DNA of 36,301 nucleotides from a virus: the IMG/VR virus record IMGVR_UViG_3300035070_002982, positions 1-36,301 of that record; one strand, written 5' to 3'. The position numbers were made by a program, and so were the translations under genes. Below the pieces are notes generated by a model, which saw nothing but the letters and a program-made list of their open reading frames with translations, had not been told where the DNA came from and did not search any database. Shown here piece by piece: positions 2,001 through 33,994 of this stretch; position 1 is the first letter of the stretch, and each line of letters starts with the position of its first letter.

Positions 2001-2486
2001 TTATGTAGTAATGTCTATTTTCCGTTTTTTTGTTTTTAATGTATGTTCTGGGTGGTTAAAATGACATTTATGACATAAAGTAATTAAACCATCCATATCT
2101 TTTTTAGAGTCACATAGTCTACTTTTTTTACCACATAACCCACCAAGATGATGTACGTCAAATCTTCTTTCATTTTTATTCCAAATTCTTTTGCATGTTT
2201 GACAAGTGTGATTATCTCTTATTCTAACTAATTCTCTAATATAATCTCTACCTGCTAAACCATACGCACCATTTCTTGTTTTAAAATTATATTTATTATT
2301 ATAATCAGTTTTTCCATTTTTTATAAACTCTAATTTACATTTTATTTTTTCAATACTCCAATTATTCAATATTTGACTAATTCTTTGATGTGTAATATCA
2401 AATAATTTTGATATTTCTGTTATTTTTTTACCACTTAATCTTTCTTGATGAATTAATATATATTTTTCTAATTTTTCTTTTTTCAT
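2001..2486 (-). CDS. HNH homing-type endonuclease with N-terminal HTH
   Basis: This is a 161-residue free-standing HNH protein. Residues about 18-41 (GKKITEISKLFDITHQRISQ) form a helix-turn-helix. The HNH/zinc module follows at about 90-145: CQTC (95-98), the VHH pair (111-113) and LCHKCHFNH (137-145). Such proteins nick or cut DNA and often behave as mobile homing elements. Its ATG overlaps the stop of the next HNH gene (ATGA). Base use is more A/T-rich than in the structural genes, fitting independent acquisition. Confidence 0.88.
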   Translation of the reverse strand: MKKEKLEKYILIHQERLSGKKITEISKLFDITHQRISQILNNWSIEKIKCKLEFIKNGKTDYNNKYNFKTRNGAYGLAGRDYIRELVRIRDNHTCQTCKRIWNKNERRFDVHHLGGLCGKKSRLCDSKKDMDGLITLCHKCHFNHPEHTLKTKKRKIDITT

Positions 2487-3034
2487 AATGATTTTATAAA
2501 ATTATCTAATAATTCAATCTCTTTTTTCAAATGGATACTTTCATTCATTTCTTTAACAAACTCTCCTGTTTCTTCTTTCATATTTGTTTTTACTCCATAT
2601 GTATCGTGAAACAATTTATGACATTTACAACACATAGCAATTAAGTGGTTATCTGGTTCATCTCCATATATACCAGTGTATACCTTATGGTGTAGTTGTA
2701 CATAATTTGTACTTTTACAACAAGAACATTGTTTTCCATGTTTTTTAAAATATCTGTTTTTTCTTTTTTCCCATAATTTGCTTATAATGTATGATTTGTA
2801 ACTTCTAACAGTTTTACGAATTTTTGGTTTTTTATTTTTCTTTTTTACATTTTTTCTTTTATCTTTCTCTTCTTTAGTCATCTTTCCTACTGTTCTTATA
2901 TGTTTTAACTTTCTTGACTTCTGAATATCATTCAACTCTTTGAACTTCTTTATCTCTTCTATTTGTATTTGTATGTTATCTAGTAAATTCATATGTTTGT
3001 TCTTTTGTTCAGCCACATCTCCCCCATACCCCAT
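2483..3034 (-). CDS. HNH endonuclease
   Basis: This is a 183-residue, very lysine-rich protein (long K/R run at about residues 55-80) with a C-terminal HNH module: CSCC, then QLHHKVY, then CCKCHKLFHD. The start is uncertain. ATG at 3034 gives 183 residues, but ATG at 2992 (MNLLDNIQIQ) removes an odd glycine-rich leader and may be correct. It lies directly downstream of the structured RNA at 3100-3290 and overlaps the second HNH gene by four bases, so the pair could be one mobile unit. Confidence 0.85.
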   Translation of the reverse strand: MGYGGDVAEQKNKHMNLLDNIQIQIEEIKKFKELNDIQKSRKLKHIRTVGKMTKEEKDKRKNVKKKNKKPKIRKTVRSYKSYIISKLWEKRKNRYFKKHGKQCSCCKSTNYVQLHHKVYTGIYGDEPDNHLIAMCCKCHKLFHDTYGVKTNMKEETGEFVKEMNESIHLKKEIELLDNFIKSL

Positions 3035-6941: not shown

Positions 6942-7484
6942 ATGAAAAAATGTATTGGTTGTGAAAACCTTATTACAAGCGACAAAAAGAAACTTTGTGT
7001 TTTCAAAAAGCAAAAGTTTTGTTCGAGGAAATGTGGATTAGTTTATAGGAATAAGGTTAATAATCCTATGAGTGACCCATTAGTTCTAGAAAAAATTAGT
7101 GGAAAAAATAGTAAGTTCTGGTTAGGTGAAAATGCTGGATATTTTTCAAAACATGATTGGATACGTGAACAGGGTATTAATCGAGAAAAGTGTTTACATT
7201 GTGGAATTAATGGATTCTTTTATAAAAACAATAGATGGAGTATAGAATTTTGTAATATATCTGGAGAATATAAAAGAATTATTGAAGACTGGATAACATT
7301 ATGTAGAAATTGTCATAGAAAAATGGACATAGGAAAAAGAGATCTTGTGGAAATAAAATGTAATGAATGTAATTGTTCGGTTTTAACAAAGTTTCCAAAT
7401 TATAAAAAATTTTGCGAAGGTTGTATACGAAAAAGACATAATCATAAGGTTAAATTAAGAAAAAGATATTTAAGGTTATTGTAA
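6942..7484 (+). CDS. HNH endonuclease with zinc-finger ends
   Basis: This is a 180-residue protein. The N-terminus has CIGCENL and FCSRKC, a four-cysteine zinc module. Residues about 50-70 (KNSKFWLGENAGYFSKHDWI) resemble DNA-contact segments of phage HNH proteins. The nuclease part is CLHCG (about 85-89), the SIEFCNISGEY region replacing the usual central HH, and LCRNCHRKMD (about 120-130). A second zinc pair (CNEC, then FCEGC) follows. Because the central HNH histidines are not clear (E/F in their place), activity is uncertain. It is flanked by hairpins and a terminator, like a self-contained mobile gene. Confidence 0.82.
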   Translation: MKKCIGCENLITSDKKKLCVFKKQKFCSRKCGLVYRNKVNNPMSDPLVLEKISGKNSKFWLGENAGYFSKHDWIREQGINREKCLHCGINGFFYKNNRWSIEFCNISGEYKRIIEDWITLCRNCHRKMDIGKRDLVEIKCNECNCSVLTKFPNYKKFCEGCIRKRHNHKVKLRKRYLRLL

Positions 7485-7690: not shown

Positions 7691-7846
7691 AATTAAATAT
7701 CTATGGGGGAAGGGAGAGTCCTAAGGGCAATTACTTTGAGTTAATCATAGTAGAATGGCATTACATCCTAATGGGATTAGGAAGATACAGGTTCGAATCC
7801 TGTTGAATAACGAGGCGTCCACGCTACGCCTACAACCTTTCCCCAC
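7691..7846 (+). ncRNA. Structured RNA enclosing a tRNA-like cloverleaf
   Basis: A 9-pair outer stem joins GGGGGAAGG (7705-7713) to CCTTTCCCC (7836-7844). Inside are the hairpin GTCC-TAA-GGGC (7718-7728), a tRNA-like cloverleaf (7740-7811) and the hairpin AGGCGT/ACGCCT (7813-7831), giving a four-way junction. It has its own promoter and no coding frame. No matching RNA class was recognised. tmRNA is unlikely, because a full anticodon arm is present and the 3' end is not CCA. Confidence 0.65.
7740..7811 (+). tRNA. tRNA-like cloverleaf, anticodon position GGG (Pro-like), probably not a standard tRNA
   Basis: Acceptor TTAATCA/TGAATAA (one A-A mismatch), extended by G7740-C7811. D-stem GTAG/TTAC with a GG-containing loop. 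Perfect anticodon stem TCCTA/TAGGA with loop ATGGGAT. T-arm ACAGG-TTCGAAT-CCTGT. The anticodon would read proline codons. However, position 37 is A and not G, base 73 is C, the first pair is T-A and no CCA is encoded, all unlike bacterial tRNA-Pro. It may be a tRNA mimic inside the larger RNA or a degenerating tRNA. Confidence 0.5.
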
Positions 7847-10853: not shown

Positions 10854-12527
10854 TTATGCAGTAGTCATGACTTTAAAATCAGTACCACCAATGTTAATTG
10901 TAATATATCCGTCATTTGTGTACGGAGCACCTGCTGTTACTTTTGTTGTATTTGGTGCAGTTACAACGTGTCTTCGTGTAGCGTCAGAGTTGGTGACGTG
11001 GAACGTGTTATTGTACTCTATTGCACCTGCTTCTGCAGTTGTCAGATTTGTACCCGATGTAAATTTAAGAGGTGCCGTGGATGCGGTCGCTGTTCCTGCT
11101 TTTAAATGAAGCACTGCAGAAGGTGAACCAACACCAATTCCCACGCGACTGTTTGCACCACTAATAGTAAGTATTTTATTCGGTGTAAATGACGCATAAC
11201 CACCTGAAAGACCACTATTTACACTAAGATACAAATCGCTTCCATTTCGTTCAATAACTGCTGCCGATGTTCCTACGGAACGATATGAACCGTAAAAATC
11301 ACCTCCGAAAATGATTGACTGATTAGTTGTGGATACATCAGGAAAAGAAGTATATATCTCTCCTGAAGATCTTTGAAATCTAACACCTGTGTTTGATTTT
11401 GTAAGAAGTTCAATATCACCACTTGTCGGCGCAGTAAGCAAAAGCCTATCAATACCTAGAATTCCTTGAGAAATACTCGCTCCTGTTGTACCAAAATATA
11501 GATAACTAGAACTTCCTGTGTTTATACGTATATTTCCAGTGGTATCAATAGAATGCAGTGGACTAGTAATTCCTATACCTAAACGATTGTTTGTATCGTC
11601 CCAAAAGAAATTCGAATTATCCTGTGCAATAGTTGTACCATTTGAGAACAATACTGAACCTGCTGTTAATGATGGTAGTGTAAATTTGTTGTTAAATGTA
11701 GTCCAATCAGTTGATGATAATGCACCACGATTAGTAGCACTAGCGGTTGGTACATTAAGAGTAATTACTGGAGTTGTAGTACCTGTTGCTACTGTACTTG
11801 ATAGGTCTGTACCAGTAGTTCCGAGTGTTAATGCCGCAACAGATGTAACTGTTCCTACTGACCAAGTTCTATCTGCTGTTAAATCATGTGCTGTACCATT
11901 GATTGTAATAGTCCGAGAAGTTGGTGTATATCCTGAAAGTGCTGATGAGGTTATATATCCTACATCATTAGTAAAACCACCTACATTTACGTCAGATTGT
12001 GTTCCTGTAATAGAAGCCCATGTTGTTGCAGAAGGTGCTACTACTGTTTTATTGATTAAGTATTGTGTACGTCTATCTAAAATATCAATGGCTCTATCTA
12101 ATTCTGGTTTATCAATTACTGTATCAAGTCCTTTGATTGTTTTACGTTCAATTACATTTTCTAGTGTGTTTATTTTTTCAACGATTTGTTCAGGTGTATC
12201 TGGTGATCCGTCTGTACCATCTTTACCATTTAATCCATTAATACCGTCAATTCCGTTACGCCCATCTTTTCCGTCTTTACCATTCTTTCCGTCTTTACCT
12301 TTATCACCTTTATCACCTTTTTCGCCCTTATCCCCCTTGTCACCTTTTTGTAATTGTATTGAACTTATGTTTTCTTTTAATGTACCAATCTCTTTTTCTA
12401 TTTTTGAAGTATCAAAAGAACCCTCTATGTTTTTTATTTCATCATAGAGTAATTTAATATCAGAAGATAATTCAAAGTCTTGCTTATCTAACTGGTTTAT
12501 CATTTCTAGAAGTTCATTGTTTTGCAT
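10854..12527 (-). CDS. Tail fibre with collagen-like shaft
   Basis: This is a 557-residue protein. It has an N-terminal helical segment (1-60), then about 16 Gly-X-Y triplets (about 62-108, GDKGDKGEKGDKGDKG onward), then a linker GSPDTPEQIVEKINTLENVI shared with the neighbouring fibre. The rest is a long beta-rich body with repeats common in phage fibres and adhesins (GTVTSVAALTLGTTGTDLSS; NRLGIGITSPLHSIDTTGNI). Collagen-like stretches make trimeric rods in phage fibres. The distal end lacks a recognisable intramolecular chaperone. It is probably involved in host attachment. It lies after a 63-base gap with no promoter that I can see. Confidence 0.85.
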   Translation of the reverse strand: MQNNELLEMINQLDKQDFELSSDIKLLYDEIKNIEGSFDTSKIEKEIGTLKENISSIQLQKGDKGDKGEKGDKGDKGKDGKNGKDGKDGRNGIDGINGLNGKDGTDGSPDTPEQIVEKINTLENVIERKTIKGLDTVIDKPELDRAIDILDRRTQYLINKTVVAPSATTWASITGTQSDVNVGGFTNDVGYITSSALSGYTPTSRTITINGTAHDLTADRTWSVGTVTSVAALTLGTTGTDLSSTVATGTTTPVITLNVPTASATNRGALSSTDWTTFNNKFTLPSLTAGSVLFSNGTTIAQDNSNFFWDDTNNRLGIGITSPLHSIDTTGNIRINTGSSSYLYFGTTGASISQGILGIDRLLLTAPTSGDIELLTKSNTGVRFQRSSGEIYTSFPDVSTTNQSIIFGGDFYGSYRSVGTSAAVIERNGSDLYLSVNSGLSGGYASFTPNKILTISGANSRVGIGVGSPSAVLHLKAGTATASTAPLKFTSGTNLTTAEAGAIEYNNTFHVTNSDATRRHVVTAPNTTKVTAGAPYTNDGYITINIGGTDFKVMTTA

Positions 12528-12590: not shown

Positions 12591-14621
12591 TTATTGTTTT
12601 ATCATTAAGATACCACTCACGTTTAATGGTGCTGCACCTGAACCTGTTGTCATATACACCATTCCTGTTGTAAGACCTGCTGTTCCCGCTGCTGCGTCAT
12701 CATCAAATGCTGGTAAGTTACTAATTGTTATGTGTTCGTTTACATCATCAATGGTTATTGATGTACCATTTGCACCGCCTTTTAATGATATTATATCGTT
12801 TGTCTCATCTACCTCTATTTTTGTACCAGTAGAAGAAATTTGTCCAACTGTATTTAGATTAGATGATACATCACGTAAGAATCCTTTCATCGTATTGTTT
12901 GTTGTAAGAATACCAATACGTGCAGAAGACGCAAATATAAATGCTTCGTTAGCTCCTCCATCAATTTTTATTTGTGTTGGATTTGCTCCTGCTCTAAAGG
13001 AATTTACAGAAGAATCATATGTAAAAACAGAACTAGCACCAAACGCACCTGCGTTATTATATTGAATCTGTGTATCTGAACCTGCTGGTGTAGAACCACC
13101 ACTAGCGTCAATAGTATAATCAACGCGATTATATAAAGGATTATTAACTCCTGTTATTGTTACTCCTGTACCTTCGATAAGGTTGATACCTGATTGACTT
13201 GCAATACCTACACTGTCTTTGTAGAAAGCAATAGTTGGTACGTTAGCGTAAGGTACTGAACCATTTGTCAAAATCATGTAGTCAATATCCCATTGTCGTA
13301 CTACTCCAACTGTTCCACCTGCCATAATCATTTTAAGTCCTTTTACGGTTGCTGGTAATGCACCGAATGCTGTAATAGGTACTACTACAAGTTGCCAAGT
13401 GTTTAATACTCCACGCTGTAGTCCATATGAGAATAGGTTAACTGTTGAACCTACAAGAGTTCCTGCACTGTTTTCAAAACGTACATTTAGAGATTTATTA
13501 GTTGCTACTGCTGTACCCGTAAACCGTACCCATACTTGTAACATTGTGTATTGATATGCATCGAAAGAAGTTGCTCTTACAAATCTTGCACCAAGTCGTG
13601 CGTCTGTACTAGCCTCGATACACTCTGTTCCCTGCTTTGGGGAACTTGTACCAGCAAAATCAATTGAACCTGTCGGTGTAGCTGTTTGATACGTTGATGT
13701 TGTCCAGTTTGTAGTAGGGTCATCCATGTAGATTTCCTCACTAGCGATAGTCGGTGTAGTTGAACCTGCTGCAACCAAAATAATAGTTACTTGTAGTTGG
13801 TCTTCTGGGATAGCTGGAACCTCTGGGTTCGCAGATGCTGTACCAGTAATAGCAGTAATTGTACCTGCTTCGTCTACCACGATAGCGTCAAATCGGTTAT
13901 CTGTAGGGTCTGATGCATCCAGCGTTACCTGGCTCGCATTTGCTGTTTTTAATCCATCAAAGAAATAATTAAGGAATGATACATCATAAGTAAGACCTGT
14001 ACCTGACCAAGTAATTCCACCAGAAATCATGTACTTACCTTGTTGTGTAAAGTTCGCATTAATAGAAATATCATTTCCTACTTCATCAAGTGTTACATTA
14101 TTTCCTGCAGATAGTGTTACGTCACCAGATAATCCGTTAATTGTTGTACTTGCCCCGCTACTTTTACTTGCGTTTGATTGGATAAGAAAACGTGTTTGGT
14201 TTTCCAACGTACTAATAGTTCGGTTAAGGTCTGTTTTATTAACATACTCACTAGAACCTTTAATTACTTTTGGGTCTAACACTTCTTCTAATGTGTTTAA
14301 TTTGTCTGCGATGTCTTTAGGTGTATCAGGACTTCCGTCTTTCCCGTCTTTTCCATCTCTTCCGTCTAGTCCGTCAATTCCGTCTCTACCATTATCTCCT
14401 TTTTGTGCTTTAACTTTTGATACAGTATCCTTGATAGTAGAGAACTCTTTTGTGATAGCAGTTATCTTTTCGTCTACCATTTCTGGAATTATATCAACAG
14501 CATCGGCAACCATTAAAAGTCCGTCTGTTAGGTCGGAAACTTTTGATTCGATTGTTGAAGTCTTATCGTTTGCAAGACTTTCAATATCTGCTATTTTTTT
14601 GTTTAGTTCATCTATTATCAT
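12591..14621 (-). CDS. Second collagen-like tail fibre/adhesin
   Basis: This 676-residue protein is paralogous to 10854-12527 at the N-terminus: helical start, eight or so Gly-X-Y triplets (GDNGRDGIDGLDGRDGKDGK, about 76-98), then GSPDTPKDIADKLNTLEEVL. The body is beta-rich. About 210-440 (TFQ-type jelly-roll sequence such as LQVWVRFTGTAVATNKSLNV) may be a carbohydrate-binding or structural module, and the C-terminus has GSDTQIQYNNAGAFGASS-type fibre repeats. The two fibres may assemble together or bind different receptors. Confidence 0.83.
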   Translation of the reverse strand: MIIDELNKKIADIESLANDKTSTIESKVSDLTDGLLMVADAVDIIPEMVDEKITAITKEFSTIKDTVSKVKAQKGDNGRDGIDGLDGRDGKDGKDGSPDTPKDIADKLNTLEEVLDPKVIKGSSEYVNKTDLNRTISTLENQTRFLIQSNASKSSGASTTINGLSGDVTLSAGNNVTLDEVGNDISINANFTQQGKYMISGGITWSGTGLTYDVSFLNYFFDGLKTANASQVTLDASDPTDNRFDAIVVDEAGTITAITGTASANPEVPAIPEDQLQVTIILVAAGSTTPTIASEEIYMDDPTTNWTTSTYQTATPTGSIDFAGTSSPKQGTECIEASTDARLGARFVRATSFDAYQYTMLQVWVRFTGTAVATNKSLNVRFENSAGTLVGSTVNLFSYGLQRGVLNTWQLVVVPITAFGALPATVKGLKMIMAGGTVGVVRQWDIDYMILTNGSVPYANVPTIAFYKDSVGIASQSGINLIEGTGVTITGVNNPLYNRVDYTIDASGGSTPAGSDTQIQYNNAGAFGASSVFTYDSSVNSFRAGANPTQIKIDGGANEAFIFASSARIGILTTNNTMKGFLRDVSSNLNTVGQISSTGTKIEVDETNDIISLKGGANGTSITIDDVNEHITISNLPAFDDDAAAGTAGLTTGMVYMTTGSGAAPLNVSGILMIKQ

Positions 14622-22768: not shown

Positions 22769-23152
22769 TTATTCAGCAATTTCTGCAACAATTTCGTCAA
22801 CTTTTTCTGCATCATCAACTTTTTGTCCTTGCTCAATTTTAACTTCTTTTGATTTTCGTTTAGCATCTTTCCAAAGTTCTAATTCATCCATAATTTTAAC
22901 CTTGATTTCTCCCTCTTCTGTAAGAGACAAGTCAGCTAAGATTTCAAATTCTGATAGTTTATCTTTGAATAGTTCTTCAACTACTGGTTTCATTTTATCA
23001 ACCAATTTTTGACGAATCATAATCTCTTTATCAAATTCAGCTTTAGCTTTTTCTGATTGTTCTACCATTTCTACAATGTTTTTATCAGCAACTTTAAGGT
23101 CTGCTAATAATTCTTTCAAGTCTTCATTTACAATTACTTCTGTTCGTTCCAT
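22769..23152 (-). CDS. Coiled-coil protein of the head module (127 aa)
   Basis: Highly charged helix throughout (LKELLADLKVADKNIVEMVE; KAEFDKEIMIRQKLVDKMKP), with a short beta part (GEIKVKIMDEL) and an acidic C-terminus. It overlaps the glycosyltransferase stop by 19 bases. It could be a head decoration or chaperone-like protein; no family recognised. Confidence 0.7.
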   Translation of the reverse strand: MERTEVIVNEDLKELLADLKVADKNIVEMVEQSEKAKAEFDKEIMIRQKLVDKMKPVVEELFKDKLSEFEILADLSLTEEGEIKVKIMDELELWKDAKRKSKEVKIEQGQKVDDAEKVDEIVAEIAE

Positions 23153-24216
23153 ATTTTTAGGTATGCGTCAGCCCATTTATGAGCATTATCCGCTATATTA
23201 TAATTATTAATTACATATTCACGAGCCTTCTTGCCCATTTGAACACGTTTATCTTTATTTTCTATTAAATCCATTGTCTTTTCAATCCAATCTTGTTCAG
23301 TAAATGCTATTTCCATATGTTTACTGTCTTCTTCTCCTTGATATGGTGATAGTCCATCTGCAAAACCTTGTGCAATTACTGGTACTTCACACATTGAAGC
23401 CTCTAAGAATTTAACATTAGACTTAGCACGATTAAAATAGTTATCGTGTCGTGGTATCAACATTAAATCTAGTTTAAGATTATTCAATGTATCAAAGTAA
23501 TCCTCTAACTGACAAAATGGTGTCCATTCTACGTTATATTGATTCCAGAAATCGAACTCTGGTTTATAAATATCTACTGCCCATTTAGTATCTTTTGTCT
23601 TAGGCGGTAGTGCAAATAAACAAATAACTACTTTAGGATTTTCTTTTAACTTTTCAAGTAGTGGTTTAATCTGTTCGTAATCTTTGTTACTTGCTACTGA
23701 ACCTACAATACCAATTCGTATGGTATCTGATTCATTACGTTTAGGTTTTGACCAATCTAGTGGGTCTACACAGTTTTTTAACGTAATAACATTATCATTT
23801 ACTTCTTTGTATTCTTTTTCTAGGAACTCTGTAGATACAGTTACTAAGTCTGATATTGCTGCGAACTTCTTTAGAATATCATCAATCTTTTGTACTGCCT
23901 CTTTTAGTTTTCCATCTAGTTTACCAAACATTTGTGTTGGTACTCCTGAATCTTTTACATAGGTATCATCATTATCCATGACAATCTTTTTACCTAATTG
24001 TTTAAGAAGTACACCAGCTTTTAATTGGTTTATATCCATTGGTCTATGGAATACAATTACATCAGCCTTCATAGCATCTTTGAACATTTGCTCATTGGTT
24101 ACTCGTGGTGTTCGTAATGATGTTTGCTCACCACTCCAGCCATTATGGATTAGTGGTTGTAAGCAACGTACATAGTAACAGGACTTATAACCCATTCCGA
24201 TATAATAAACTTTCAT
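23134..24216 (-). CDS. GT4-type glycosyltransferase inside the head module
   Basis: This 360-residue protein has a GT-B layout. The N-terminal half (MKVYYIGMGYKSCYYVRCLQ, DVIVFHRPM, KIVMDNDDTY) corresponds to the acceptor domain. The C-terminal half is the nucleotide-sugar domain: IRIGIVGSVASNKDYEQIKP, then FLEASMCEVPVIAQG at about 275-289, the family E-x7-E-like donor-binding region. Such enzymes move sugar from activated donors to protein, lipid or glycan. Its position between the capsid gene and the connector gene suggests glycosylation of virion proteins, but a wall or DNA target is also possible. Confidence 0.85.
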   Translation of the reverse strand: MKVYYIGMGYKSCYYVRCLQPLIHNGWSGEQTSLRTPRVTNEQMFKDAMKADVIVFHRPMDINQLKAGVLLKQLGKKIVMDNDDTYVKDSGVPTQMFGKLDGKLKEAVQKIDDILKKFAAISDLVTVSTEFLEKEYKEVNDNVITLKNCVDPLDWSKPKRNESDTIRIGIVGSVASNKDYEQIKPLLEKLKENPKVVICLFALPPKTKDTKWAVDIYKPEFDFWNQYNVEWTPFCQLEDYFDTLNNLKLDLMLIPRHDNYFNRAKSNVKFLEASMCEVPVIAQGFADGLSPYQGEEDSKHMEIAFTEQDWIEKTMDLIENKDKRVQMGKKAREYVINNYNIADNAHKWADAYLKIWNEQK

Positions 24217-24447: not shown

Positions 24448-25901
24448 TTATGAAGTTGTAATGATTTTTACAGCTGCGTTATCTCGGTTTTCAACTACTC
24501 CAAACAAAATGTCTGCAGTAGTTAAAGTTGAAAGATAATCAGGGATGTAAGAACTTTGTACACGAACGTTATGTTTACCAACCATTCCTTTTCCGTAAGT
24601 CATTACAGGAAGTGAAGAAGTTGCATAGTGGATAGCGTCTTTGTGAGCCAAAACGTTTACTCGTCCTCCTAGTACTACTGGTACATAAGTTGAAGAGTAT
24701 ACAGGGATTCCATATAGGAATGCTGCAGGCATTTTCGCTGTTGGGTCGTTAACTGGTGAGTTAATAGCCAAAGAGAATTTGTCTAGGTTTTGTACTTGTT
24801 TCCAGAATGTGTTTGGGTGCATGAAGAATGCTACTTCATCCATATCAACACAGTTTCCTTCCAAAGTTGCGATAGCTGCTCGGATGTCTGAATCTGCAAT
24901 AGCGGTTGCTGATGAACCTACTGATTGTGAGAATCCAGAGAATAGAGTTGCTACTGCTGTTTCCAATACTGCTGCGATTGTGTAACCAGCGTTTTTAGCG
25001 TATCGTTCTTGGATAGCGTAAGACTGTTTAACGAATGCTGCTTCTCGGTCTTCAATAGCAAATGATACTTCTTTCCATGTATCAATAACAAGGTCAATAG
25101 AAGTTTCAGTTGGACTGTTACTTTTGTGTTTTCTCCAATTACTTGGAGTGTCGGACTATATCTTCAATCTTTCGATTGTCGGGTGCTGTGGGCTTACCGT
25201 AGTATCCCTAGTCTCTGAACCTTCCATAGTCTTCCCTATGGCTCGGCTGCTGATTGACCTTCAATTATGAATTAAAGGCGTTCCAGCAATTCTCCCGATT
25301 TTGTTTTATGAACATTTTTGTGGCACTTAGTGCATAATGTGATTCCATTACTTTCATCATAAAAGAAATCATCATTACCATTTAATTTTCCATAATCATA
25401 TGTACTAATTATAGCACATTAACTGTCCAATAGATACCCCTAACAGTGAAGAAAGGGTAACTGCAACTGCGTTAGTTTTAGTGTTAGCTGACATTTCTGT
25501 CAAATTAGGAGTGTGTAGAGTGTCTCCACCTGCTGCTAATTCTCCTGATCGGTCTGTAAAGAAGTCAGTAATGATAAGTTTACATTTGAAGAAGTCGTTG
25601 ATTCGGTCTCCCCAAATTTCCATGTTGTTACTACCTATTTCTAGGCGGGTAGGGCATTTCTGCTACCTCTGCGTCTTCATGTATACACGCAGGTCGGACT
25701 ATCGCATCACCTTAATGGCAATAAGGCGTTTTTTCATTTAGTCTCTGCAAGTCCTCAGTTTAATAAATAAACAAGGTTCTTGAGGGTTACCCCATCGGGC
25801 TTTCCCCATTAATTAGAAAAAATTTTACATCCCCGAAATTATAGGTAAGGGATCATTACAGCCAAGTCTGTACTTGTGAATGTATCTGTTGCGAATGCCA
25901 T
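24448..25901 (-). CDS. Major capsid protein, split gene: exons 25901-25848, 25620-25454, 25120-24448
   Basis: Joining the three exons (54 + 167 + 673 bases) gives an unbroken 297-residue protein. Exon 1 encodes MAFATDTFTSTDLAVMIP. Exon 2 encodes EIWGDRINDFFKCKLIITDF through TNAVAVT. The leucine codon is split CT|T, and exon 3 continues NSPTETSIDLVIDTWKEVSF. An N-terminal arm, the SFAIEDREAAFVKQSY region and the late YGIPVYSST...GRVNVLAHKDAI segment fit an HK97-fold capsid subunit, and the gene follows the scaffold gene. Without splicing, translation stops at codon 21 (TAA). Exon ends match P1 guide pairing and terminal G of both introns. The start at 25901 is the only ATG in frame. Confidence 0.92.
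25121..25453 (-). ncRNA. Group I self-splicing intron 2 of the capsid gene (333 nt)
   Basis: All four conserved core elements are present on the minus strand: P GAATTGCTGGAAC (25292-25280), Q AATCAGCAGCC (25255-25245), R GTTCAGAGACTA (25220-25209) and S AAGATATAGTCC (25164-25153), plus a CAATC-GAAA-GATTG hairpin (P8). P1: exon end TACCCT (25459-25454) pairs with the guide GGGGTA (25440-25435), leaving the required U-G at the splice site. The intron ends in G (25121). Sequence is closest to the phage IA class. It contains the 3' stub of an HNH gene. Confidence 0.92.
25272..25415 (-). pseudogene. HNH homing endonuclease remnant inside intron 2
   Basis: An open frame without a start codon (…STYDYGKLNGNDDFFYDESN, then GITLCTKCHKNVHKTKSGEL and a stop) matches the C-terminal half of an intron-type HNH enzyme: the second zinc pair CTKC and the final KNVHK. 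The N-terminal half with the first CxxC and the HH is missing, so it is a deletion relic. Its end overlaps the P element, as seen in intact intron-borne HNH genes. Confidence 0.8.
25621..25847 (-). ncRNA. Group I self-splicing intron 1 of the capsid gene (227 nt)
   Basis: R-like element TGCAGAGACTAAA (25749-25737) and S-like element GCGATAGTCC (25705-25696) form P7. P8 is CGCCTTA/TAAGGTG (25729-25709). P4-P6 is compact: GGGG/CCCT, GCCC/GGGT, CAAG-aac-CTTG. P9 has CTGCGT/ACGCAG, and a CCTA-GAAA-TAGG hairpin follows. P1: exon end ATCCCT (25853-25848) pairs with the guide GGGGAT (25834-25829), with U-G at the splice site. The last intron base is G (25621). It is short, has no ORF, and is clearly different in sequence from intron 2. 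Confidence 0.87.
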
Positions 25902-30965: not shown

Positions 30966-31083
30966 AGTCTCGTTTTAATTGTTTAATAAACTTATCTATT
31001 TCATTACGACCATTTCCACAACCATAGATATTGTCTCTAAGTTCAGTTAGTTTGTCTATTATTGTTTGTAGTTCTATTGTCAT
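30952..31083 (-). CDS. Small helical protein (43 aa)
   Basis: MTIELQTIIDKLTELRDNIY then GCGNGRNEIDKFIKQLKRDY and EID: two helices around a glycine turn, a possible coiled-coil hairpin. It overlaps the glycosyltransferase 3' end by 41 bases. The long overlap lowers confidence slightly. Confidence 0.52.
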   Translation of the reverse strand: MTIELQTIIDKLTELRDNIYGCGNGRNEIDKFIKQLKRDYEID

Positions 31084-31744
31084 ATGATTGTTTAAATTCA
31101 TTAAAGTATTTCATCATTGTACTATGTGCTTCACTTAAGTTTCTATGTACATTACTAATCATAGACTCACCGTGTTTTCTATAAAAGAATAAATATTCAG
31201 GTACTGTTGCAACTTTATATCCTAAATATGTTGCCTTTAACCAAAATTGCCAATCTTCTAGTCCGATCTTAATACGTTCTTCATATCCACCAACCTTTTC
31301 CCATATCTCTTTACGAAACAATGAGCAACAGTTAATCTGATTATTTTGTAAAAAGTCTTCGTGAGTTGGATTAGTTTTAAACAAATATTTGCGGTCAGTA
31401 TCTCCAAATTCTTGTTGTCCTGTACCGATTATATCATATTCATCATTATATTTCAAACACTTTTCTATAAAATCAGGTGCTATTTTATCATCTGCATCTA
31501 GTGTTAATATCCATTCTCCTGTTGCTTCTTTGATACCTGCATTGCGTGCTGATGATAGTCCACCATTCTCTTTTTCTATAAGTTTCACGTCAAACATTTT
31601 AGCAATTTCACTTGTATTATCTGGACTACCGTCATTAACTACAATAACTTCACAGGGTACTGTTTGATTTAGTGCAGAGTTTACTGCATCTGGTAGCCAT
31701 TGACTCTGGTTATAGCATGGTATTATAATACTTACTTTCTCCAT
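31043..31744 (-). CDS. GT2-family glycosyltransferase
   Basis: This 233-residue enzyme has the GT-A fold signatures: VSIIIPCYNQSQWLPDAVNS at the start, VIVVNDGSPDNT, ENGGLSSARNAGIKEATGEW, then the DAD-type metal motif in LTLDADDKIAPDF. It continues with GGYEERIKIGLEDWQFWLKA (ED acceptor-side motif). Such enzymes transfer a sugar from a nucleotide donor, here perhaps to modify surface glycans or virion components. The C-terminus (NRTTNNNRQTN) is low complexity. It is in one operon with a SAM methyltransferase, a common pairing in glycan modification. Confidence 0.88.
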   Translation of the reverse strand: MEKVSIIIPCYNQSQWLPDAVNSALNQTVPCEVIVVNDGSPDNTSEIAKMFDVKLIEKENGGLSSARNAGIKEATGEWILTLDADDKIAPDFIEKCLKYNDEYDIIGTGQQEFGDTDRKYLFKTNPTHEDFLQNNQINCCSLFRKEIWEKVGGYEERIKIGLEDWQFWLKATYLGYKVATVPEYLFFYRKHGESMISNVHRNLSEAHSTMMKYFNEFKQSYDNRTTNNNRQTN

Positions 31745-33055: not shown

Positions 33056-33994
33056 TTAATCTTTTGGAATAAATGATAATATGTGTGCAATTACATCTAC
33101 TGTCCAACCATTTCCTATTGCTGTGTATCTTGCACTATCACTTACTCCATCAGAATAATTATCTGGTAATGTTTGTAGTCGCTCGTATTCAAGTGGTGTT
33201 AGTTTTCTAACTTTTCCATTCTGATACACCTTTTTTACAAGATTTCCACCATTTCCATCACATAACAAAGTATTGCATTTGTTATTAAGATTGTATACTT
33301 CTTTTGCTTGTCTGTGGCCATTTAATAGGATTGTGGCTTCCACTTTTTTATCTGAACCATTATACTGAACATCGTATTTTGTATACCAATATTTTTCTGG
33401 TACTTGTTCCGCTGGTAAAATAATATCTTTAAGATTTATATTTTTATCTTTTGGTTGTATTACTCCTGGAATATTAGTCCAATATAATCTCTTACGTTCT
33501 GCACCACATACAAGTGATGAGTTAATCATTATTGGTTCAACTCCTAATTCTTGAGAAATTACATCTACCCATTTCTTTTGCATACTTGCAACATTTTCAA
33601 GTAAAAAATATTTAGGTTTAACTTCTTTTAATAGTCTTACAAAATGATAAAACAAATTACTTTTTTTACCATCAAGTCCTTTTACATCACCCCTATCATA
33701 TTTATAATTACTTAAATCCTGGCAAGGTGAACCGCCAATCAAAAGATCTATATCTTCAATAAAGTCTATACCCATAGTGTTATACTCACCATTTTCTTTT
33801 CTACAAAATTGACCGCAATCATAACCAAAATCAGTAACACTTCCAAGTTGAACTATATTTGGATAATTTTTATTACTTATCTTTATTGCATTTTTATCTA
33901 TCTCGCTTGCAAAATATAATTCCACTGGTATTCCAGCACGTTCTAAGGCTACTCTACCACAAGATATTCCATCGAATAATGATAATACTTTCAT
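33056..33994 (-). CDS. C5-cytosine DNA methyltransferase
   Basis: This is a 312-residue protein with the motifs in order: I SLFDGISCGRVALERAG (5-21), IV GGSPCQDLS with catalytic Cys91, VI LLENVASM, VIII ERKRLYWTN, and IX/X at the C-terminus (TPLEYERLQTLPDNYSDGVS; TAIGNGWTVDV). It methylates cytosine C5 in a specific DNA sequence. The target region is short. No partner nuclease gene is seen nearby, so it is an orphan enzyme, probably used for protection from host restriction. Confidence 0.93.
   Translation of the reverse strand: MKVLSLFDGISCGRVALERAGIPVELYFASEIDKNAIKISNKNYPNIVQLGSVTDFGYDCGQFCRKENGEYNTMGIDFIEDIDLLIGGSPCQDLSNYKYDRGDVKGLDGKKSNLFYHFVRLLKEVKPKYFLLENVASMQKKWVDVISQELGVEPIMINSSLVCGAERKRLYWTNIPGVIQPKDKNINLKDIILPAEQVPEKYWYTKYDVQYNGSDKKVEATILLNGHRQAKEVYNLNNKCNTLLCDGNGGNLVKKVYQNGKVRKLTPLEYERLQTLPDNYSDGVSDSARYTAIGNGWTVDVIAHILSFIPKD

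Follow-up and report, generated by a model that had tools for sequence, protein, structure and literature searches.

A 36,301-nucleotide stretch of viral DNA (IMG/VR record IMGVR_UViG_3300035070_002982, positions 1 to 36,301), referred to as the window in the following, carries a major capsid gene that, as judged from its sequence, is split by two group I introns. This assignment draws on the combination of covariance models, covariation, P1 and P10 helices, terminal G residues and naturally occurring empty alleles. In the most plausible scenario, to which we assign a probability of roughly 95%, the two introns were acquired independently, splice themselves out of the transcript to permit synthesis of the full-length capsid protein, and each constitute the residue of a homing intron that lacks its endonuclease.

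Organization of the capsid gene

The gene as a whole spans positions 25901-24448 on the minus strand, and an ORF check of this region revealed no frame that remains open through it as unspliced DNA. Its three exons, delimited by their reading frame and by alignment to the uninterrupted gene of the related IMG/VR contig L003, comprise 54 nt (exon 1, 25848..25901, codons 1-18, MAFATDTFTSTDLAVMIP), 167 nt (exon 2, 25454..25620, codons 19-74) and 673 nt (exon 3, 24448..25120, the rest of codon 74 to the stop). Intron 1 (25621..25847, minus strand) is 227 nt long, contains no ORF and lies between codons 18 and 19 (AUCCCU/UACC...CAUG/GAAAUU, with slashes marking the splice sites), whereas intron 2 (25121..25453, minus strand) measures 333 nt and interrupts codon 74 (UACCCU/UUCU...AAAG/UAACAGU). 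When the exons are joined (25901-25848, 25620-25454 and 25120-24448), they form a single frame of 297 codons plus stop. In a profile search, the 297-residue product matched the PHROG 267 major head protein with an E-value of 5.3e-18 over residues 10-242, a region spanning both junctions, while a Pfam search with the same protein returned no match. The capsids of named phages resemble it over no more than ~43% of its length, with 26-30% identity.

The capsid gene of L003, whose DNA is 82-90% identical to that of the window and whose capsid protein is 95% identical, is uninterrupted at both sites, and the two sequences align collinearly after removal of exactly 227 and 333 nt. The original prediction, according to which a capsid frame only exists once 227 and 333 bases are taken out, is thus borne out by the joined frame, the collinearity with L003 and the PHROG 267 match. 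L004 and L005, with 65% and 59% capsid protein identity, respectively, likewise lack insertions at both positions. Among 55 related capsid loci, 7 are interrupted (L007, L021, L024, L025, L056, L058 and L059), so that the introns occur sporadically against a background of empty alleles. A survey of 85,000 genomes for cellular or proviral relatives yielded only a 7-kb contig from a Tenericutes bin, which is too weak a basis for a host call.

Beyond the capsid gene, the window contains a tRNA-Pro gene with the anticodon GGG (7740-7812, plus strand) as well as two large proteins (10854-12527 and 12591-14621, both minus strand) that each feature a stretch of collagen-like G-x-x repeats and are probably tail-fibre-like. 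Three further minus-strand ORFs (23134-24216, 31043-31744 and 33056-33994) comprise, by our reading of their sequences, two putative glycosyltransferase-like ORFs and one putative DNA cytosine methyltransferase-like ORF.

Ribozyme structure and predicted splice sites

A search with the Rfam group I intron model RF00028, proposed as a check in the original prediction, gave a divided outcome. Intron 2 scored 82.8 bits (E 8e-20) and thus exceeded the 50-bit gathering score, which is a cut-off of the library and carries no biological definition, whereas intron 1 fell below it with 41.3 bits (E-value 1.4e-8 for 2.15 kb and 5.5e-11 for the complete record). RF00028 also gave no match to the homologous introns on which it was tried, including clear ones, and we therefore attribute the shortfall of intron 1 to a low sensitivity of the model for this subgroup. 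Using homologues collected from a pattern scan of IMG/VR and from the capsid relatives, we built a dedicated covariance model (R1) from an alignment (A2) of 11 related introns that left out the window and in which the endonuclease ORF of some introns had been excised by hand beforehand. R1 produced a single match in the window (25834-25621, minus strand; 157.4 bits, E 8.7e-43), ending precisely on the terminal G of intron 1 at position 25621, and no match in the uninterrupted capsid loci. It missed intron 2, indicating that the two introns belong to distinct lineages.

Going beyond the R, S, P7 and P8 elements initially recognized in intron 1, we identified in it P1, P3, P4, P5, P6, P7, P8 and P9 as well as two further 3' hairpins. 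In a set of 13 introns including that of the window, both sides change in 29 of the 39 core pairs, and 93.0% of the cells in these pairs are paired, as opposed to 37-42% when the partners are slid by 1-3 columns. The covariation is located in P3, P4, P5, P6 and P9; P7 is invariant and, hence, makes no contribution to it. Together, the R1 match and the covariation identify in intron 1 the group I core of P3-P7-P8 with P4-P6, including P7 as the G-binding helix. In intron 2, P3, P4, P5 and P9 pair as expected. Automatic helix placement fell on wrong copies of the motifs for P6b, P7 and P8 of intron 2 and for P9.1 of intron 1, and these placements were not used.

Both introns display the hallmarks of group I splice sites, namely a U.G pair between the last exon base and the guide, an intron-final G and a P10 helix with the 3' exon. 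In P1 of intron 1 (25829..25853, minus strand), the exon sequence AUCCCU (25853-25848) faces the guide GGGGAU (25834-25829), and in P1 of intron 2 (25435..25459, minus strand), UACCCU (25459-25454) faces GGGGUA (25440-25435). All six pairs form in either case, including the terminal U.G, in full agreement with the guides (GGGGAT and GGGGTA) and terminal G residues originally proposed. P10 is a perfect helix of 6 bp in intron 1 (GAAAUU with AAUUUC) and of 7 bp in intron 2 (UAACAGU with ACUGUUA), which fixes the 3' splice sites of both introns independently; these helices were not part of the original prediction. For the first junction, alignment alone leaves an ambiguity of one base; since the exon has to end in U and the intron in G, the junction is placed at CCU/GAA. 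At this site, the intronless genes of L003, L004 and L005 have CCG or CCA instead of the CCU found in the window, so that these empty alleles lack the exon U on which splicing depends. This difference suggests either co-conversion or an adaptation of the exon.

The absence of a continuous capsid frame from the DNA could in principle also reflect a broken pseudogene or errors in the assembly, and no second intact capsid gene was seen in the window. However, the two insertions are complete ribozymes with exact junctions, matching P1 and P10 helices and corresponding empty alleles, the exons are open and conserved, as reflected by the protein identity with L003, and similar introns recur in many independent contigs. 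We therefore reject both explanations, whose probability we consider practically nil.

Probable homing history of the introns

The pattern scan contributed further interrupted loci (L072, L085, L087, L096 and L103). In all 13 introns with worked-out junctions, the window's two included, P1 comprises 4-8 bp, the last base is a G and excision restores the capsid frame. The insertions map to codon 4 (L021 and L024, with L007 placed there by its features), to the boundary of codons 18 and 19 or 1 nt downstream of it (intron 1 of the window, L025, L072, L085, L096 and L103), to codon 72 (L056 and L096) and to codon 74 (intron 2 of the window, L058 and L059). A second interruption of L085, near codon 179 (L085:6697-7407), has a core matched by R1 and harbors an ORF of an unassigned family. 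L096, another uncultivated phage, has two capsid introns (L096:6316-6937) in nearly the same positions as the window, neither of them with an intact endonuclease ORF; the first follows codon 18, at the site of intron 1, and the second interrupts codon 72, 6 nt upstream of where intron 2 is inserted. With introns at five or more sites, the capsid genes of these relatives appear, on comparative grounds, to be a recurrent homing hotspot.

The relatives of intron 1 (L025, L096, L103, L085, L109 and L072) share with it a homologous ribozyme, the same capsid motif and the same or an adjacent position, but most of them contain a LAGLIDADG ORF or its remnant, which is missing from the window. LAGLIDADG_1 ORFs are found in the introns of L025 (3e-7) and L085 (1.5e-8), a weaker LAGLIDADG match in that of L072 and another LAGLIDADG ORF in that of L109, all at the intron-1 site or displaced from it by 1 nt. 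A search with two LAGLIDADG proteins retrieved 69 loci, 16 of which (15 distinct) have a capsid exon 3' of the endonuclease that starts at profile position 18-22, a count that includes the two query contigs themselves and several loci lacking an exact 5' junction. For the LAGLIDADG loci L142, L145, L157, L160, L162, L163, L174 and L175, whose capsid exon starts from ...DIWSKQV, no convincing 5' junction was found, and they were left out of the same-site count. The capsid gene of L172 (L172:1623-3199) is split at profile position ~88, where a LAGLIDADG relative separates the two parts; this may be a further insertion site. In the Gordonia phages Lennon, Sitar, Nordenberg and Thing3 (e.g., MH153809, 10653-11099), genes with the annotation MuF-like minor capsid protein or head morphogenesis enclose a LAGLIDADG sequence related to the endonucleases of the capsid introns; this insertion may be an intron or an intein.

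Intron 2 has a different ancestry. L058 and L059 contain, at exactly the same site, a related core within an intron that, unlike its counterpart in the window, is 874 nt long and includes an intact HNH ORF (190 aa in L058; Pfam HNH 6e-4). The DNA encoding the C-terminal part of the L058 HNH protein and the core that follows align to intron 2 with 67% identity over 194 nt. The corresponding segment of the window (25272..25373, minus strand) is the C-terminal remnant of an HNH homing endonuclease (Pfam HNH 2.9e-4, PHROG HNH endonuclease 4e-5) of which only ~33 codons are left, without a start. Neither intron thus encodes a functional homing endonuclease. The intron 2 core is also 77% identical over 123 nt to a stretch of Dulem virus 41 located between ORFs annotated as polymerase/primase, indicating that this lineage extends beyond capsid genes.

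One of the introns might, in principle, still be mobilized by a free-standing endonuclease encoded elsewhere, an arrangement known from T4-like phages. Candidates are present in the window, including two HNH-like ORFs on the minus strand (2001-2486 and 2483-3034) that match PHROG HNH endonucleases and one on the plus strand (6942-7484) with a weak match to a family of unknown function. However, nothing ties these ORFs to either intron site, and we regard ongoing homing by this route as improbable. Our preferred reading is that both introns have lost their means of mobility. The ancestor of intron 1 would have belonged to a ribozyme lineage whose LAGLIDADG endonuclease, as in its present relatives, is directed at the codons for IP-x-x-W, a conserved motif of the capsid, and that of intron 2 to a separate lineage with an HNH endonuclease acting at the identical site. 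Both introns were probably gained through homing, with subsequent loss of the endonucleases. Their location in an essential gene, which tolerates nothing short of precise deletion or efficient splicing, would account for their persistence.

Proposed splicing, known systems and significance

We infer the splicing pathway from structure and comparison. Both ribozymes would fold within the pre-mRNA, guanosine would attack the exon-final U, and the exons would be ligated at the terminal G under the guidance of P1 and P10, giving rise to the capsid mRNA. On unspliced RNA, translation would halt early, which, by analogy with known phage introns, may keep ribosomes off the ribozyme core. The in-frame stops 9 nt into intron 1 and ~16 codons into intron 2 would tie capsid yield to splicing, and a psbA group I intron has been linked to light-dependent expression (cited in PMC8557907). 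It is conceivable that the introns are real and that their splicing serves as a switch by which capsid output is adjusted to the state of the cell, as proposed in the original prediction. However, the introns are sporadic, being missing from most related capsid loci and even from a relative as close as L003, their insertion sites and lineages vary, the decayed endonucleases point to a selfish origin, and the capsid intron of LittleE is described as efficiently spliced (PMC3706429). A link between splicing and cell state is unsupported, and we consider it very improbable; the comparative data rather point to homing elements devoid of endonucleases.

The presence of two introns in one capsid gene, initially deemed unusual, is so only in part, given that capsid introns are published, that we found a dozen more interrupted capsid genes among the relatives and that L096 also has two. 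In mycobacteriophage LittleE, splicing of the capsid intron in vivo was demonstrated by RT-PCR and N-terminal sequencing, in a study that also cites a capsid intron in Tuc2009 (PMC3706429). As in the window, a probable group I intron in the major capsid gene of a tailed phage was recognized through intronless relatives. However, LittleE has a single intron of 819 bp whose endonuclease ORF lies on the opposite strand, whereas the two introns of the window are short, come from different lineages and have no intact ORF. Capsid introns also occur in crAss-like Delta and Zeta phages, where one capsid ORF of the Zeta-group cMAG OLRF01000054 is divided into five fragments (PMC7886860). These metagenomic phages likewise have several group I introns within one capsid gene, but their genomes are larger and intron-rich (145-192 kb for one family), and their introns were found mainly via endonuclease domains, an approach that introns without intact endonucleases, such as those of the window, would largely escape. 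The Jug phages possess similarly compact group I introns (~206 nt on average) in essential genes, with metatranscriptome reads supporting splicing for 37 of 76, but the host genes named are terL, nrdD and DNA polymerase, and the genomes reach 360-402 kb (PMC12363816). Capsid-gene introns, including several per gene, are thus established, and the window represents a further case.

In the open-licence papers searched, we found no description of one LAGLIDADG intron lineage repeatedly occupying the IP-x-x-W capsid site, which we note as a lead rather than a claim to priority. Somewhat favored by the evidence is a broader picture in which a LAGLIDADG group I lineage has specialized on the codons of this motif and spreads among widely diverged uncultivated phages, with their capsid genes serving as a lasting hotspot of homing where unrelated introns insert as well, at nearby sites. 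The window may then reflect a late stage, at which both endonucleases have been lost.

Split capsid genes of this kind are easily overlooked by gene callers and marker-gene surveys, and RF00028 failed to detect any of the related introns tried. Collectively, the loci form a natural series that leads from an empty site via an endonuclease-bearing intron to an endonuclease-less intron, at defined positions in the gene that encodes the virion's most abundant protein. Comparison along this series allows tests both of the homing cycle and of what splicing costs a structural gene.
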